From assembly GCA_012270885.1 (NCBI GenBank), contig JAAXHN010000034.1, forward strand, positions 2,032-34,588: a DNA stretch of 32,557 bases, read 5' to 3'. Shown here piece by piece: positions 13,159 through 21,722 of this stretch. The notes under the pieces were generated by a model. It was not told the origin of the DNA. It did no database searches and saw nothing but the letters and a program-made list of their open reading frames with translations. Source of the stretch: Acidimicrobiia bacterium (GTDB taxonomy: Bacteria; Actinomycetota; Acidimicrobiia; Spongiisociales; ZC4RG35). How positions within the stretch are numbered: position 1 is the stretch's first letter; every line of letters starts with the position of its first letter. A program made the position numbers and the translations under genes.

Positions 13159-13458
13159 ATGGACGGAACGGTCTCTTTCACCCAGATGTCAGACAGGACC
13201 GCCGACGACTACGCGCTCCTCTCCGAGTACGAACAGGAAGAATTGGACGAGTTTCCGGATCGAGTGCTCGAGTGGCTCCGTTCCATGGACGAGCACACCG
13301 GATACCAGATCACCCGGCTGGGTCACTCCCTGCAAGCCGCCACCCGCGCCCACCGGGCCGGGGAGGGCGAGGAGATGGTGGTGGTGGCGTTGCTCCACGA
13401 CATCGGCGACGTCCTGAGTCCCGCCAACCACTCGGAGGTGGCGGTGGCTCCGACCTGA
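13159..13458 (+). pseudogene. Truncated HD-domain phosphohydrolase
   Basis: The 99-residue ORF has an ideal ribosome site (AAAGGAG, 7 nt) and matches the N-terminal half of a family of about 190-residue HD-domain oxygenase/phosphohydrolase-like proteins. Visible motifs are QITRLGHSLQAATRA and ALLHDIGD, the HD metal pair, followed by the conserved SPANHSE. After NHSEVA the family similarity stops and the ORF ends four residues later. The second half, which supplies further metal-binding histidines, is absent here and is not seen elsewhere in the window. Its TGA overlaps the ATG of the PLD-ATPase gene (TGATG). I infer that the island inserted or recombined at about 13445, leaving a non-functional stump, though a shortened expressed protein cannot be excluded. 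Confidence 0.72.
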
Positions 13459-15452
13459 TGTCTCCGAATTCGAATTTGCAGACTCTGGCGCTGGACGATG
13501 GTTCCGGACTCCGCGTGGTCCGGGCCCGGTTTATGGATGAAGAGAAGTTCGACTGGACTCTGTTCGAGGGATTCGAGCGTCTGCGGGTTCTGACCTTTTC
13601 CGCCAGCAGTGCAGCCGTGGTCAAGATGCTGGACGACTTCTCTTTCGAGAGCTTCGAGTGCGTATTCGGCAGCGAGGCCGTTCTCGGGAACTTCTTGGAG
13701 GTCATCGCCTTCCAGAGTGTGGTGACGGGACAGACGCGGGCGGCCATCATGGGTTTGAAAGACGAGCGGCACCGCCGCATCCTGGAGAGGATCGCCACCG
13801 GACAGGCCAGGTTCTGGGTCCTTCGCCAGTTTGTGGCCCATGCCAAGTTGTACCTCCTGTCCTCTGCGCGCAGCACCCGGGTGATTGTGGGTTCGGCCAA
13901 TCTGTCCGAACGGGCATTCTCGGGGAACCAGCCTGAGACCCTGGTCGTCTTCGACAACGACCAGGCGGCTTGGGGCCACTACAGTCGCATGTTCGAGGCC
14001 ATCCGGGACTCGGGCGCCGACGAGATATCGCTTCCCGAGGACCGGATAGTCCAGGCCGAGATCGAGGTGACCGAAGCCCCGGTGCTGTCCGACGACTCCA
14101 CGACAGTGGTCATAGAAGCACCGGATCCGGCGGTGGTCGAGATGTCGGTGCCGGTGCAGGTGGAGCGGATCGAGAAGGTGGTGGCGGTGTTGAAGCCACG
14201 CCTGGCGGCCGCAATCCCCAATTTCCGATCCGGGCGACAGCGGATCACCCCGGTCGTCAAGCGGGAGTTGAGCCGCATACGTCTGGTCAAGTCCAGTGAC
14301 GAAGCAGACAGTCGCTACTTCTCCCTGGACAGGATCAATGGAAAGGCGATGTTGTCCGGAGAGGACCTTCCTCTTCGGTGGGACAGTCGGTCAGTCCGCA
14401 CCGACGCCAGCCTGATCCTCGACTTCTTCGGGAACTACGAGGGGGCGTTCGAAGGTGATGTTCCCGCTCACCAGCGCGACTACTTCACTCTGATGGCCTG
14501 GCTTTACTTCTCTCCTTTCATCTGTGATCTCCGTTCACTGGCGCATCTCCGGGACAGCGATGTGGTTCGCTATCCCTCATTCGCGATCATCTTCGGCAAG
14601 TCCAACTGTGGCAAGACCAGTCTGGTGGACACCCTCACCACCTCTATGTTCGGTCGTCCCCACACTGTCGACAAGCGGAGTTTCACCACCGCCCAGTTGC
14701 GCGGCCTCCAGCACGCTTACCGGCGTCATCCGGTGGTGTTCGACGACATCGGGCGGAGAGCCTTCAACCAGCACGGCAGGGACATAATCAAAGACGAGTT
14801 GCCTCCCTCCGTCTCCGAGTACCCGGGTTTCGTCCTGTCGATGAACGCTGAGCCGCACTCTTTCCCCGATGAGATCGCCAAACGAAGCATGATGACCTAC
14901 ACCACCACCGCTCTCCCTGCCCACAACGAAGGTCTGCGGCAGAAGCTGCAGGGCGAGGTCCAGCAAATCCGAAAAGCCCTGACCGGTCATCTGTACCGAC
15001 GCTACCTGGCAGAAGTGATGGCCCGTTTGGAACTCGACCGGCTTCCCGAGGACTGGTTGGCGATTTCGTCCTCCGTTCTCCTCGGCATTCTGGAGGAGGC
15101 CTCCGATGGCGCGCCACCACCATGGTGTCGGCAGGTGACCTGGCTCGATTTCGCCGATAAACGTTACGACCGCGTGAGGGACCGGGTCCTGCACCTGCTC
15201 CGACTGTCGGCCTACACCAAGAGGGAAAGCGAGGGTCCCGTGGGCTGGACCATAGATGGGAACAACGTCATCGTCTGGGAGCAGCGAGACGCCTTCGGCA
15301 GACGCGCTTTCGCCTGGGAGGATCTGCCGTCCACTCTCATAGACGAGGCCGCCAGCGGTGGCGACCGGACAGTACTACACCGAAAGAGCCTCGAAAGCTT
15401 CCTCGGTCGCCCCCTGCGCCCGAGGGGGCACTGGTGGAGGCGTAGCCGGTAG
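13458..15452 (+). CDS. Phospholipase D-family nuclease fused to a P-loop ATPase (candidate defence protein)
   Basis: The 664-residue product starts at ATG 13458. Residues about 20-185 form a single-HKD phospholipase D nuclease domain: H128-x-K130 in VAHAKLYLL, then RVIVGSANLSERAFSGNQPE with N148 and E160. One HKD motif implies that two chains form the active site, as in the BfiI and NgoFVII restriction nucleases. A linker (about 190-335) leads to an ATPase with Walker A GKSNCGKT (380-387) and Walker B VVFDD (426-430). A later strand ends in LSMNAEP, followed by the arginine of EIAKRSM. These resemble motif C and the arginine finger of superfamily 3 or AAA+ enzymes. By inference it is an ATP-dependent DNA-cutting or translocating defence protein. 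The ribosome site is weak; the gene is coupled to the HD stump. Confidence 0.75.
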   Translation: MSPNSNLQTLALDDGSGLRVVRARFMDEEKFDWTLFEGFERLRVLTFSASSAAVVKMLDDFSFESFECVFGSEAVLGNFLEVIAFQSVVTGQTRAAIMGLKDERHRRILERIATGQARFWVLRQFVAHAKLYLLSSARSTRVIVGSANLSERAFSGNQPETLVVFDNDQAAWGHYSRMFEAIRDSGADEISLPEDRIVQAEIEVTEAPVLSDDSTTVVIEAPDPAVVEMSVPVQVERIEKVVAVLKPRLAAAIPNFRSGRQRITPVVKRELSRIRLVKSSDEADSRYFSLDRINGKAMLSGEDLPLRWDSRSVRTDASLILDFFGNYEGAFEGDVPAHQRDYFTLMAWLYFSPFICDLRSLAHLRDSDVVRYPSFAIIFGKSNCGKTSLVDTLTTSMFGRPHTVDKRSFTTAQLRGLQHAYRRHPVVFDDIGRRAFNQHGRDIIKDELPPSVSEYPGFVLSMNAEPHSFPDEIAKRSMMTYTTTALPAHNEGLRQKLQGEVQQIRKALTGHLYRRYLAEVMARLELDRLPEDWLAISSSVLLGILEEASDGAPPPWCRQVTWLDFADKRYDRVRDRVLHLLRLSAYTKRESEGPVGWTIDGNNVIVWEQRDAFGRRAFAWEDLPSTLIDEAASGGDRTVLHRKSLESFLGRPLRPRGHWWRRSR

Positions 15453-17442: not shown

Positions 17443-18993
17443 GTGCTGATCATCTATATGATGAATGGCATGGAGGATCGAGCGTCCCGGACCCCGCGCC
17501 GTTCCACCAGCACCTCCGTGTTCGGAGCAGGTCGACGAGAGAGTCATGACTCGTCGGCCTTTTACGCCCGTTTCAAACCACCGGTTATCGATGACGACAA
17601 TCGGGTCGGCTCCTGTCCCGACATAGACGGTCCGTTCCTGGGAGATGCCCGGTGGATGGGAGAACTTCCCGACCGGTCCGTTGCTTTGGTGGTTACGTCA
17701 CCTCCCTACTTCGTGGGGAAGGAGTACGAGGACGCGGTGCTCCAGGCTGCTCGTTCCAACTCTCTTTCGGCTGAACTTCCGGGAAACTACCGGGAGTATC
17801 TCCGGCTTCTTTACGATGTCTTCGCCGAGTGCCGCAGGGTTCTGGAGCCGGGCGGGCGCATGGCCGTCAACGTGGCCAATCTGGGGAGAAAGCCCTATCG
17901 TAGCCTCTCCGCCGATGTGATCGGGATCTTCGAGTCTCTCGGCTTGCTGCTCCGGGGGGAGATCATTTGGCGCAAGGCATCGGCAGCCAGTGGTTCCTGT
18001 GCCTGGGGCTCGTTTCGCAGCCCTGCCAATCCGGTGCTCAGGGACGTGACTGAGCGGGTGATCATCGCGTCCAAGGGTCGGTTTGATCGGGCTCTTACTT
18101 CTGCTCAACGACAAGCACAGGAGCTTCCCTTCCGTCCCAGCCTGGCTAACGACGAATTCGTCGAAGCGACCCTGGATGTGTGGGATATTCCCGCTGAGAG
18201 CGCCCGTCGGGTGGGTCACCCGGCGCCTTTTCCGGTGGAGCTTCCCTTGAGGCTTATTGATCTCTATACATACCGAGACGACCTGGTGCTCGACCCCTTC
18301 ATGGGGTCGGGAACTACTTTGGTGGCTGCTCGCCGAGCAGGGAGGAGAGGGGTCGGATACGACATAAACCCCGAATACGTGGACATGGCTCGGCAGAGGT
18401 TGGAGGTTGCTCACCGCCGACCCTTCCCGGAGGAGGAGATGGAGATTGCTTCGTCTCCCAACGGTGTCGCCGATGGAGGGGCCATCGCCGGTGAAACCAC
18501 AGAGCACTTCCAAGCGCGGGCGTTGCGGGAAGGGAAGAAAGCCCAGGACTTGGCGAGGGACGCGTTGAGTCATGCGGAGTTTGAGATTCTCAGGACCAAT
18601 CCCCGGATCGCCAGGTTGGGCATCCAGTTCAACTTCCTGGTCGAGAACCGGCATGGCCGGAGGTGGTACGTGGACGTCTCGGGGGCTTTCACCACCGTCC
18701 GTCCGGGACTCATGCGAACCGACACCCTGTGGAAGACGCTGGGCCGCGCCCACGTCCATCACATGGCGGGGGACGGGACTCCGCTCCTGATACTGACCTC
18801 GAACCTGCCCAAGCCTGGAGCCGAAGGATGGAAGGCTCTGAAGTCGGTGGGACCCCGAAGCGTGTTCGACGCCATCGAGATCTTCGACCCGGAGGGGGCC
18901 GACCGCCTCGGGTCCTACGGAAGGGAGGACATAAGCCGCCCCACAAAGGGGTTCTGGACTCCCGAGCAGATCGAACAGGCCTTCGGGAGATAG
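17443..18993 (+). CDS. TSPPY-type DNA methyltransferase with an extra C-terminal domain
   Basis: Motif IV is TSPPY (residues 85-89) and motif I is LVLDPFMGSGTTLVA, about 195 residues later. Motif IV before motif I is the beta-class order. TSPPY is commonest in N4-cytosine methylases, though N6-adenine cannot be excluded. Motif X follows (GVGYDINPEYVDMARQRLE). The catalytic module ends near residue 325. Residues about 345-516 form a separate domain with GIQFNFLVENRHGRRWYVDV and TDTLWKTLGRAHV, seen as a tail in other actinobacterial methylases. It might be a target-recognition or degenerate nuclease domain; I cannot assign it. Several starts are possible (GTG 17443, ATG 17458, 17461, 17470). 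It is probably the modification half of a restriction-modification or other defence set. Confidence 0.85.
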   Translation: MLIIYMMNGMEDRASRTPRRSTSTSVFGAGRRESHDSSAFYARFKPPVIDDDNRVGSCPDIDGPFLGDARWMGELPDRSVALVVTSPPYFVGKEYEDAVLQAARSNSLSAELPGNYREYLRLLYDVFAECRRVLEPGGRMAVNVANLGRKPYRSLSADVIGIFESLGLLLRGEIIWRKASAASGSCAWGSFRSPANPVLRDVTERVIIASKGRFDRALTSAQRQAQELPFRPSLANDEFVEATLDVWDIPAESARRVGHPAPFPVELPLRLIDLYTYRDDLVLDPFMGSGTTLVAARRAGRRGVGYDINPEYVDMARQRLEVAHRRPFPEEEMEIASSPNGVADGGAIAGETTEHFQARALREGKKAQDLARDALSHAEFEILRTNPRIARLGIQFNFLVENRHGRRWYVDVSGAFTTVRPGLMRTDTLWKTLGRAHVHHMAGDGTPLLILTSNLPKPGAEGWKALKSVGPRSVFDAIEIFDPEGADRLGSYGREDISRPTKGFWTPEQIEQAFGR

Positions 18994-19155: not shown

Positions 19156-20178
19156 ATGACCGGGATTAACCGGACAAGAGAACCCCAGAAGACTCGGGAG
19201 GAGCGGGGGGTAGTAGAACTCAGAAAAGACAGCCTGGCATTCCGCTTTCCTCAGGTCCATAAGGACGCTGAGTTTTCCCTTGACTTTCAGCGCACTCTCC
19301 GGATACCCGACGACGGTCGGGAACACTATCTGCCACCCGGACTGGGGATATTCCCCATGGAACTGGTGGACGACTACGCGGACCGGGTCCCGGAGGCGTG
19401 GCGAGAACACGGCGGGGTCTTTCTTCCCATGTACCAGTCCGAGGCGATGTGGATCAACTTCAACGGCGCCTACCCCATGGCCGTCAAGGTGGCGGCCGGG
19501 AAGATCAACGCGCTGACCGGGGAGGAGTGGTCAGAGGACCTCTGCAAGGATCCCCAGGACTATCTCGTGCGCCCCGACCAGCCGTGGCTGGACGGGTTCA
19601 GTGTCAAGCGGGGCCTGATCCGCCAGTTCGTGGCGATGCGGCTGGGTGAAGGGTATACGGCCGAGGAGCAACTGACCAGCGAGGCCCGCCACGGCGGCGT
19701 CCAGATCACCGCCTATCCGATGAAGGCCACGGAATATGAGGAGCGCTACCGCAGAGTGGACAGACGTTCCGATGTCTCGTACAGCATGGCCGCCCCTCCT
19801 ATGGAAATGGGTCTGGCCCCCGGGGGGCTCATGCGCCAGGAGATCTACTCCGACGAGTACGGATTCGACGTGTGGGATACCACGGCCGGCGCCAGTTGTT
19901 ACGTGCACATCGTTAACAGCCTCCAGTACTTCTCGGTGTCCGGGGTTTCCCCGCCGCACCGACCTCCCACCGCGGAGAAGTATGCCGAGGCGGGGTTGCC
20001 GTGGTTCGACTATTACGACGCCGACCTGACGGCTCTGACGGGTGCGGAGAAGCTGGCCGGGTTGGACAGTGTCGCCCAGCGCCAGGTCAAGGAGGGAAGG
20101 GTGGTCCGCTCCGACGGCCCCCTGGGTCCGGTGGTCGTCCAGCCTCTCTCGGCCAAGGATCGGTCGCCGGTCGGTTAG
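19156..20178 (+). CDS. Conserved protein of unknown function
   Basis: The 340-residue soluble protein has no signal peptide or membrane helix. It is preceded by GGAGG at 8 nt from the ATG. I recognise the pattern of a conserved actinobacterial hypothetical family: FLPMYQSEAMWINF, KVAAGKIN-LTGE-W, QDYLVRPDQPWLDGF, IRQFVAMRLGEGYTAEEQLT, GGVQITAYPMK and MGLAPGGLMRQEIY, ending in GLPWFDYYDAD. No catalytic motif that I can name is present. Conserved Trp, Tyr, Gln and Gly clusters suggest a beta-rich fold, but this is speculation. Its place between a DNA methyltransferase and an IS remnant makes it a passenger of the accessory island. Confidence 0.8.
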   Translation: MTGINRTREPQKTREERGVVELRKDSLAFRFPQVHKDAEFSLDFQRTLRIPDDGREHYLPPGLGIFPMELVDDYADRVPEAWREHGGVFLPMYQSEAMWINFNGAYPMAVKVAAGKINALTGEEWSEDLCKDPQDYLVRPDQPWLDGFSVKRGLIRQFVAMRLGEGYTAEEQLTSEARHGGVQITAYPMKATEYEERYRRVDRRSDVSYSMAAPPMEMGLAPGGLMRQEIYSDEYGFDVWDTTAGASCYVHIVNSLQYFSVSGVSPPHRPPTAEKYAEAGLPWFDYYDADLTALTGAEKLAGLDSVAQRQVKEGRVVRSDGPLGPVVVQPLSAKDRSPVG

Positions 20179-20279
20179 GGCAGATGAGGCTTTTGCCGGC
20201 TTTGACCTCTTTGGTGGTTTATGGACGTCGCAGTAGCTGTAGCAGTGGGTATCTGGAGGATGTTTGTTCCGCTGGTCGC

Positions 20280-20597
20280 GTGTAGGAACCCGGTTGGGAC
20301 TGTTGTGGGGACGCGACGAACGATCCTCCAACCCGATGTCGCCTTCCTCCTGCCACCGGCGCAGCCACCGGTAGACGGTTTGGCGAGAAACCCCCACCGA
20401 CTCAGCGGCCCGAGCCGCCGGCCACCCTCCCACCACAACCCGATCCACCAACAACCGCCTTCCGAACGGTGTCAACTTCCTACAGTTGGTCCTCACGAGG
20501 GCCTCCTTTTGATTCGAAGGATTGGTTTCCCACAAATCAAACCAGGGAGGCCCTCACCCTCCAAACAATTTGTCAACCACGTCCCTGGGAAGTACAA
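20280..20597 (-). mobile_element. IS481-type insertion sequence remnant (transposase N terminus and one end)
   Basis: From a GTG at 20496, with GGAGG 5 nt upstream, the minus strand encodes a leucine/arginine-rich helix-turn-helix: KLTPFGRRLLVDRVV, then GVSRQTVYRWLRRWQEEGD and LEDRSSRPHNSP. This is the N-terminal DNA-binding part of IS481-family transposases. Similarity ends near 20280 and the DDE catalytic region is missing, so it cannot move by itself. The left end appears to be at about 20597, where the minus strand reads TGTACTTCCCAGGGACG, consistent with IS481 ends that start TGT. The insertion abuts the 3 prime end of the ATPase gene. The other end and a target duplication were not found. 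Confidence 0.7.
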
Positions 20598-21710
20598 CTA
20601 GGCATTTGTTTCACCCACTCCCGGGTGGCGTGATGGGCGAAGGTCACCCAACCTTTGCGGACCGGGATGATCATGCCGGCCTTTATGAGGCGGTGTCTGT
20701 AGACACCCGCATAACCGACGGTCACTCCCAGACGATCAGCCACATCGGCCAGCCGGGAGTCGAAGGCGTCCAGGGTCATGGCCATCAGAAACCGCCTGTC
20801 CACATAGGAGAGACCCTTCCAGACAGGTGCGAGAACCAACCGAGGCATCTGTCTTTCGGCTGCCGCGATTCCCGCAGCGGCTTCGTGGAAGGTGATTCCG
20901 GCATGCGGATCCGAGGCTGCTTTCCAGATGTGAAACCCCACCAGTTGGGTCATGAAGGCGTAGCCCGAGACTGCCTGGACGGCGGCACGCAGACCCTCGG
21001 GGGCGATGGTGGCCTTCTGGATACTGATGGGTAGGGCCAGTGCCTTAGCGGTGTCCTCGTCGCTGAGTGGTCCGATGTCTCTCCGGGCGCACCGCTGAAG
21101 GAAGGTGGCTGCGTCGCCCGCCAGCAGTGTCTCCTCGATCTGGGGGAGTCCGGCGCCGACAAAGGCGATCGGTCGGGCTTCTCTGCGGGTCAGGTGTTGG
21201 ATCACACTACCGAAGCGGCGAATCTCTCCGAGGTCGCCGCCCTGTAACTCGTCGATGGTGACCAACAATCCGGCACCCTTCGAGTGGAGGACATCGCTGA
21301 GTACGGTAAGCACGTTTCGGAGGTCTTGGGAGGGCTCAGACGAAGGGCTGGTTTCGAAGTCGACGCCAAAACCTCCTGCTCGCAGTCCGGTGATTCTGCG
21401 GGCGGGTCTGGGGGCGTCAAGTTCGTCAAGAGCCGATGCCGCCGCGGAGTTGATCCGAGCCAGCAGTCCCGGGTAGGCGGCATCCTCTGGAAATAGTTAT
21501 CCAGCCTTGGTTCCGGGCTAGTTCCTCTAACGCGTTGAGCATGGCCGTCTTGCCGGCGCCTCGCATCCCCAGCAACAGCAGCGTGTAGTCGGGATGGTGG
21601 GGTCCGGTTTCCAGGGCATTGTCCCAGTCGGCGAGGATGTCGTCACGCCCCGCCAGAACGGGTGGAGAGGTGCCAAAAGCAGGCGTAAAAGGGTTTTCTC
21701 GAGCGGCCAT
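20573..21710 (-). pseudogene. Frameshifted, 3 prime-truncated P-loop ATPase (actinobacterial AAA/ORC-like ATP-binding protein)
   Basis: The gene starts at ATG 21710 (MAARENPFTPAFGTSPPVLA), with Walker A GMRGAGKTAML and a GRDD motif typical of a family of about 400-residue STAND/ORC-like ATPases. Near 21488 the frame changes. The first frame reads RNQGWITIS and then nonsense to 21426; a second frame resumes with DAAYPGLLARINSAAA and continues through the Walker B-like GLLVTIDELQGGD (the last residues near 21240) to 20573. Removing one base at about 21488 restores a single reading frame with ISEDAAYPG. The last residues (CTSQGRG and stop) come from the IS481 end, so the native C terminus is lost. 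Either a sequencing error or a real disablement is possible for the frameshift; the truncation is independent. Confidence 0.75.
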
Positions 21711-21722
21711 GGTGATCAAGAT

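Follow-up and report, generated by a model that had tools for sequence, protein, structure and literature searches.

The closest described relatives of the gene reported here come from haloarchaea, where long-A Argonautes are paired with a PLD protein, AgaP, in the APAP systems (PMC11442185). On its own AgaP is toxic, an effect that depends on H105/K107 and the GSxN residues and is suppressed by the Argonaute; plasmid restriction requires the catalytic PLD residues of AgaP, and immunity to an ssDNA virus depends mainly on the catalytic residues of the Argonaute (PMC11442185). AgaP is also described there as removing viral as well as plasmid DNA with no marked abortive infection. Within the family treated below, toxicity and a plasmid restriction that needs the PLD residues have been shown for AgaP alone, in that work. 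The terms ATPase, NTPase, Walker and P-loop occur zero times in the text of PMC11442185, and an earlier census of pAgo operons designated their PLD proteins as putative nucleases, an ATPase going unmentioned there.

We analyzed a window of 32,557 nucleotides from the 2.6-Mb draft genome (235 contigs) of an Acidimicrobiia bacterium, and focused on one gene of 664 amino acids on the forward strand (13458..15452, stop codon included), delimited by its ORF and motif positions. Its ATG at 13458 agrees with the alignment, in which homologues begin at the matching residue. An earlier note, made from the sequence alone, had read the product as a single-HKD nuclease joined to an SF3/AAA+-like ATPase. 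The ORF, its coordinates, H128, K386 and the motifs GKSNCGKT, VVFDD, LSMN and AKRSM all lie where that note placed them, and profiles and motif invariance bear out the predicted fusion.

The N-terminal PLD (single HKD) nuclease domain covers residues ~30–190 (13545..14027, +) and is recognized in Pfam by PLDc_2 (2.4e-6) and RE_NgoFVII (3.1e-5), both of which match all 14 of the 14 diverse family members searched. The catalytic motif HxK...GSxN (H128, K130, G145, S146 and N148; 13839..13901, +), with H128 within HAKLYLL...VGSANLS, lacks the D of the classical HKD, and all five residues are invariant in 22 sequences. An N-terminal PLD with HxK and GSxN is thus common to all 22 members, including the AgaP of N. 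pellirubrum.

For the other half, the domain assignment held less directly. Pfam returned sub-threshold P-loop/SF3 matches only, the best named one being PF00910 RNA_helicase (SF3) at 0.013, while a profile of the domain at residues ~305–540 (14370..15077, +) aligned to the bacterial DUF5906 SF3 helicases with a probability of 93.6% (E 2e-7). These 113 columns run from the Walker A to the Arg finger and include Walker A, Walker B, the motif C Asn and the Arg finger in the order and spacing of SF3 enzymes; for the FtsK control, 28 columns aligned with the ATPase profile, covering the P-loop alone. The motifs, all on the forward strand, are Walker A GKSNCGKT at residues 380–387 (14595..14618; G380, G385 and K386 invariant), Walker B VVFDD from residue 426 (14733..14747), motif C or sensor-1 LSMN from residue 460 (14835..14846; N463 invariant) and the arginine-finger segment AKRSM from residue 474 (14877..14891; R476 invariant). 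The C-terminal half is accordingly classed as an SF3/AAA+-like ATPase, with a predicted AAA+ fold and putative hexamer formation, ATP hydrolysis and unwinding. Behind it lies a C-terminal region of unassigned function (15090..15449, +). The close family conserves this region, part of which can be aligned with AgaP, and the hhalign alignment runs through it.

In the 22-sequence alignment, which reaches down to 16–18% identity, 11 columns are invariant (H128, K130, G145, S146, N148, G380, G385, K386, P425, N463 and R476). Ten of these are catalytic or motif residues of the two domains, the exception being P425, and D429 of Walker B is conserved at more than 90%. Judged from this invariance across 22 homologues, the motifs are beyond chance. 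The dN/dS of the gene is 0.11–0.13 between the window copy and three relatives, so the protein has been maintained under purifying selection. Searches of NCBIfam and PHROGs gave nothing useful, and PDB profile searches gave partial PLD matches and generic P-loop matches only. The AlphaFold models of the whole protein (pLDDT 47) and of the ATPase domain (pLDDT 42) were not usable, probably owing to too great a similarity among the sequences eligible for the alignment.

An overlap between a haloarchaeal homologue and a Piwi gene led us to the AgaP paper (PMC11442185). We identified the N. pellirubrum AgaP as a 717-aa ORF (L054:5998-8151) directly behind the Piwi gene, and this ORF matches nine of the nine published residue numbers, namely H105, K107, E112, G119, S120, D122, G157, S158 and N160 (PMC11442185). 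It also carries ATPase motifs, with GESNGGKGT at 447, VVVDD at 495, FISND at 529 and NRAK at 542. The plasmid record misannotates agaP as two short opposite-strand hypothetical ORFs and a 375-aa C-terminal piece. When a bacterial-only profile was compared with a haloarchaeal-only one by hhalign, they aligned with 99.9% probability (E 7e-33) over 570 columns covering both domains, and the ATPase domains alone aligned with an E of 1e-12; the C-terminal P-loop ATPase is thus homologous in the two groups. An HMM of the close bacterial family (~61% identity and above) reached haloarchaeal members with E-values of up to 8e-8 and AgaP with 0.002, the database size being set to 1e6, and unrelated ORFs among 5198 scored at most 15 bits. 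Overall, AgaP and the window protein are 16–18% identical, and the ATPase half stands outside the published AgaP tests, so transfer of function from AgaP is uncertain.

A Piwi gene is adjacent or one gene away in 7 of the 19 plasmid records with haloarchaeal homologues. Piwi matches were found neither in the window nor elsewhere in its own genome, and no Argonaute was seen beside the bacterial members examined. Downstream of haloarchaeal members at L056:8598-14049 and L057:8606-14043 comes a conserved series of genes, among them those for a ThiF (E1-like) adenylyltransferase, a DEAD/DEAH helicase and an RNase H-like protein; the series occurs also where an Argonaute is absent (L057).

Among 85,000 species genomes scanned, 14 close relatives (62–92% identity) turned up; they fall in Acidimicrobiia, Chloroflexi and Latescibacterota or belong to unclassified MAGs. 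The distribution is patchy. No further genome of the family or order carries the gene in a sample of 41, the class sample has it in 5 of 296 genomes (beyond the genus, as fragments only, in one more genome) and the phylum sample in 9 of 396, while the phylum samples around L012 (Chloroflexi) and L018 (Latescibacterota) gave 16/251 and 11/64, respectively. Protein searches of plasmids added plasmid-borne homologues from Acetobacter, Komagataeibacter, Arcobacter, lactobacilli and many haloarchaea, together with homologues from Thermus and Athalassotoga; carriage by phages or viruses was not found in INPHARED and five IMG/VR scans. In the plasmid copy of Thermus oshimai (L025:9968-13026), a transposase insertion has left separate PLD and ATPase ORFs. 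Chloroflexi and Latescibacterota interleave in the maximum-likelihood tree, where they form several separate groups with good support, a pattern indicative of horizontal transfer.

Such mobility would also suit a selfish protein of plasmids or integrative elements, acting in addiction, exclusion or maintenance, with an SF3-like domain derived from replication initiators, and spreading itself without defending its host. Plasmid copies are frequent near ParA/ParB, relaxase, Rep and toxin-antitoxin genes, toxin-antitoxin genes adjoin a family member at some loci (L127/L128), and an SF3-like ATPase is typical of replication proteins. We nevertheless regard this reading as unlikely, since there is no conserved partner antitoxin and the same chromosomal locus is kept across the genus under purifying selection; an exclusion role would in any case overlap with defence.

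Within the genus, the gene is intact in four of six genomes, 83–92% identical to the window copy, and stands at one chromosomal locus in the order purine/xanthine genes, EamA transporter, HD gene, PLD-ATPase gene, sugar dehydrogenase (on the opposite strand) and DNA methyltransferase. Genome G001 retains a 60-residue relic, and a second copy in the window's own genome, 81% identical, lies on a short contig (L052; G000:C163:4308-5682) with an apparent frameshift near residues 571–584. In the window, the upstream neighbours are the EamA transporter and a broken HD-domain gene, and the sugar dehydrogenase lies downstream, followed by the methyltransferase. The HD gene is a truncated PhnZ-like (oxygenase) gene of 99 aa (13159..13458, +; NCBIfam Phn-HD 7e-9), whose stop overlaps the ATG of the PLD-ATPase gene; it is intact with 185 aa in two other genomes of the genus (L008 and L010). 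By blastn, a deletion of ~1.1 kb relative to L010 has taken its 3' half and the spacer, with a junction at ~13442–13454, and this deletion produced the TGATG overlap. We therefore rejected an operon with the upstream ORF, the overlap being a deletion scar.

The earlier note had called the neighbours restriction-related, a description that did not survive: metabolic genes make up most of the direct surroundings, and the methyltransferase stands two genes away and is linked in this genus alone. This N6/N4 DNA methyltransferase (17443..18993, +; PADLOC MTase_II 1.8e-84) adjoins the PLD-ATPase gene only within its own genus, with an opposite-strand gene between them, and has no standing as a conserved partner; a cognate R-M pair was accordingly rejected. 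Its C-terminal extension of ~190 aa, conserved at the locus in the genus, has by eye only the look of a restriction-type nuclease (FLVENRHGRRWYVDVSG...). Farther downstream, a fragment resembling, by eye, the helix-turn-helix of an IS481-type transposase (20178-20535, -) suggests past mobile-element activity, and an AAA_16/STAND-like ATPase gene (20573-21719, -) is split into two ORFs in the window, whereas a relative has an intact ORF of 385 aa (L051:238-1395).

We then compared the neighbourhoods of the family with those of other genes, using 72 immediate neighbour genes at 20 bacterial loci and, as controls, 72 genes in 18 regions of the same genomes. In the neighbour set, 50 PADLOC families were matched at 1e-30. 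This PADLOC mode counts families, not loci; by a tally of loci made by hand, the matches trace to about five loci, including the methyltransferase of the window, or to six with a weaker BrxD match. The control set matched six families, which were judged to be housekeeping paralogues (cysteine desulfurase, NtrC-type regulator, kinase). Strong defence neighbours thus stand at ~5–6 of the 20 bacterial loci versus 0 of the 18 control loci, a modest difference (Fisher p 0.02–0.05) that rests on hand-picked loci and thresholds. Among the defence neighbours are, in Latescibacterota, a type I R-M operon accompanied by Schlafen-AlbA and Fic genes, then BrxD and BrxH-like genes (L120 and L114), at L115 a type IIG enzyme alongside HKD-Snf2 and DpdF/GajB-like helicases, and AbiLi at L050. 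In the Chloroflexi locus L115 (L115:1511-15875), the DpdF-like and GajB-like helicases are fused as one protein of 1703 aa; upstream of the Latescibacterota type I R-M/PLD-ATPase cluster lies a gene for 1480 aa with no Pfam match (L018:3814-8253).

Defence neighbours are therefore present at a minority of loci and absent from most. The earlier note had held that homologues lying mainly in housekeeping contexts would refute its reading, and this was in part what we observed, as the remaining ~14 of the 20 bacterial loci have metabolic or ordinary neighbours, the direct ones of the window included. The ordinary genes around many bacterial copies would fit an enzyme of DNA repair or end-processing, in which a tyrosyl-DNA phosphodiesterase-like HKD activity would resolve replication intermediates with branches or protein-DNA adducts, and the SF3-like ATPase would make the DNA accessible to it. 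In fact, several haloarchaeal members are annotated as tyrosyl-DNA phosphodiesterase, and PF06087 matches 2 of 14 members (best 7e-6). However, there is one HKD here versus two in TDP1, a core role is ill-suited to plasmid carriage and to a gene missing from nearly all relatives, and AgaP, whose HKD residues make it toxic on its own, acts against plasmids (PMC11442185). A repair role consequently seems rather improbable.

We consider it reasonably probable that the gene encodes a stand-alone anti-invader effector, distantly homologous to AgaP along its full length, in which an SF3/AAA+-like ATPase controls or powers a PLD (HKD) DNA nuclease. The homology to AgaP, the patchy and mobile distribution and the defence neighbours together make a role against invading DNA likely. 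For the bacterial branch, we infer a DNA substrate, ATP dependence, oligomerization, self-control and anti-phage activity. A single HKD generally works together with a second one, as in Nuc and BfiI, so a dimer or oligomer formed through the AAA+/SF3 domain would be a natural switch for the nuclease. In such a scheme, the ATPase would assemble on foreign or replicating DNA and possibly move along it, ATP binding or hydrolysis would pair the PLD domains into two-HKD active sites, and the paired sites would cut the DNA and so eliminate plasmids or phage genomes. On this view, the Argonaute supplies APAP systems with targeting and restraint; as the bacterial branch lacks one, the ATPase and linker would have to restrain and trigger the nuclease themselves.

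The PLD superfamily also includes RNA-acting members, and an abortive-infection effector that cuts RNA or tRNA, triggered by phage through the ATPase, would account for the weak SF3 RNA_helicase match and for the killing of cells by AgaP alone (PMC11442185). Yet the nearest families in Pfam are those of DNA nucleases (NgoFVII) and D5-type SF3 helicases, and AgaP is described as clearing viral and plasmid DNA with no marked abortive infection (PMC11442185), which leaves this reading very improbable.

Returning to the anti-invader effector, the earlier note had proposed a candidate undescribed anti-phage effector. A role against invading DNA is likely, and one against phages conjectural for this branch, while the family is not wholly undescribed, since AgaP is an experimentally tested, distant member; descriptions of the ATPase half of AgaP or of the Argonaute-free bacterial branch were not found in the open-access literature. 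An unannotated bacterial family spread across several phyla is now tied to a tested archaeal defence protein, which itself carries an ATPase half that its authors left undiscussed, and two questions become directly testable, namely the role of the ATPase in AgaP and whether the family works without an Argonaute. PADLOC-DB 2.0 has no model for the full-length family and gives partial PLD or P-loop matches only; scans that rely on this library would at present overlook the family. More tentatively, the family may be an immune effector encoded by a single gene, widespread and moving horizontally, whose SF3-type ATPase is a built-in sensor that triggers the PLD DNase without an Argonaute; the ATPase might then be the true control element of AgaP, and APAP an older stand-alone system that an Argonaute has captured.

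Two known systems with partial matches were rejected. The PLD segment resembles ZacB of Azaca in 14 of 14 members (best 6e-8), but only ~60 of the 586 profile positions match, the ATPase half is unmatched and there are no ZacA or ZacC neighbours in the window. The match to Mad8 of MADS (E 2e-4) covers the P-loop only, and the Mad8 model, a generic detector of FtsK-like P-loops, gave matches in all genomes tested, most of them to FtsK-like proteins.

The remaining comparisons concern domain order and partners. Like PbeA, HKD+Snf2 and Mokosh-type proteins, the window protein joins an HKD nuclease to a nucleic-acid motor; this motor is SF3-like here, whereas those of PbeA and HKD+Snf2 are SF1/SF2, according to papers and model titles. 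The motor of Mokosh is SF1, fused to a PLD in type II (MkoC), and no Mokosh model appears in the PADLOC hit list. BrxL-HKD of type 1 BREX is likewise a defence protein with an AAA+ ATPase fused to an HKD nuclease, but its HKD is C-terminal and has K changed to R, and the protein belongs to a multi-gene BREX system (PMC12839542), while the HKD here is N-terminal and retains K, and the gene stands alone. BfiI and NgoFVII share the single-HKD PLD lacking the classical D, as reflected in the RE_NgoFVII matches; the C-terminal half of the window protein, however, is a predicted ATPase and not a specificity domain, and it has neither an obligate cognate methyltransferase nor a conserved adjacent one. 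AgaP differs in a gap of ~50 residues between HxK and GSxN and in its linked long-A Argonaute, which the window's genome lacks, so that the gene falls outside APAP itself. With AgaP the protein nevertheless shares homology along its full length, the order of the domains, HxK...GSxN, and the Walker A, Walker B, N and R residues.
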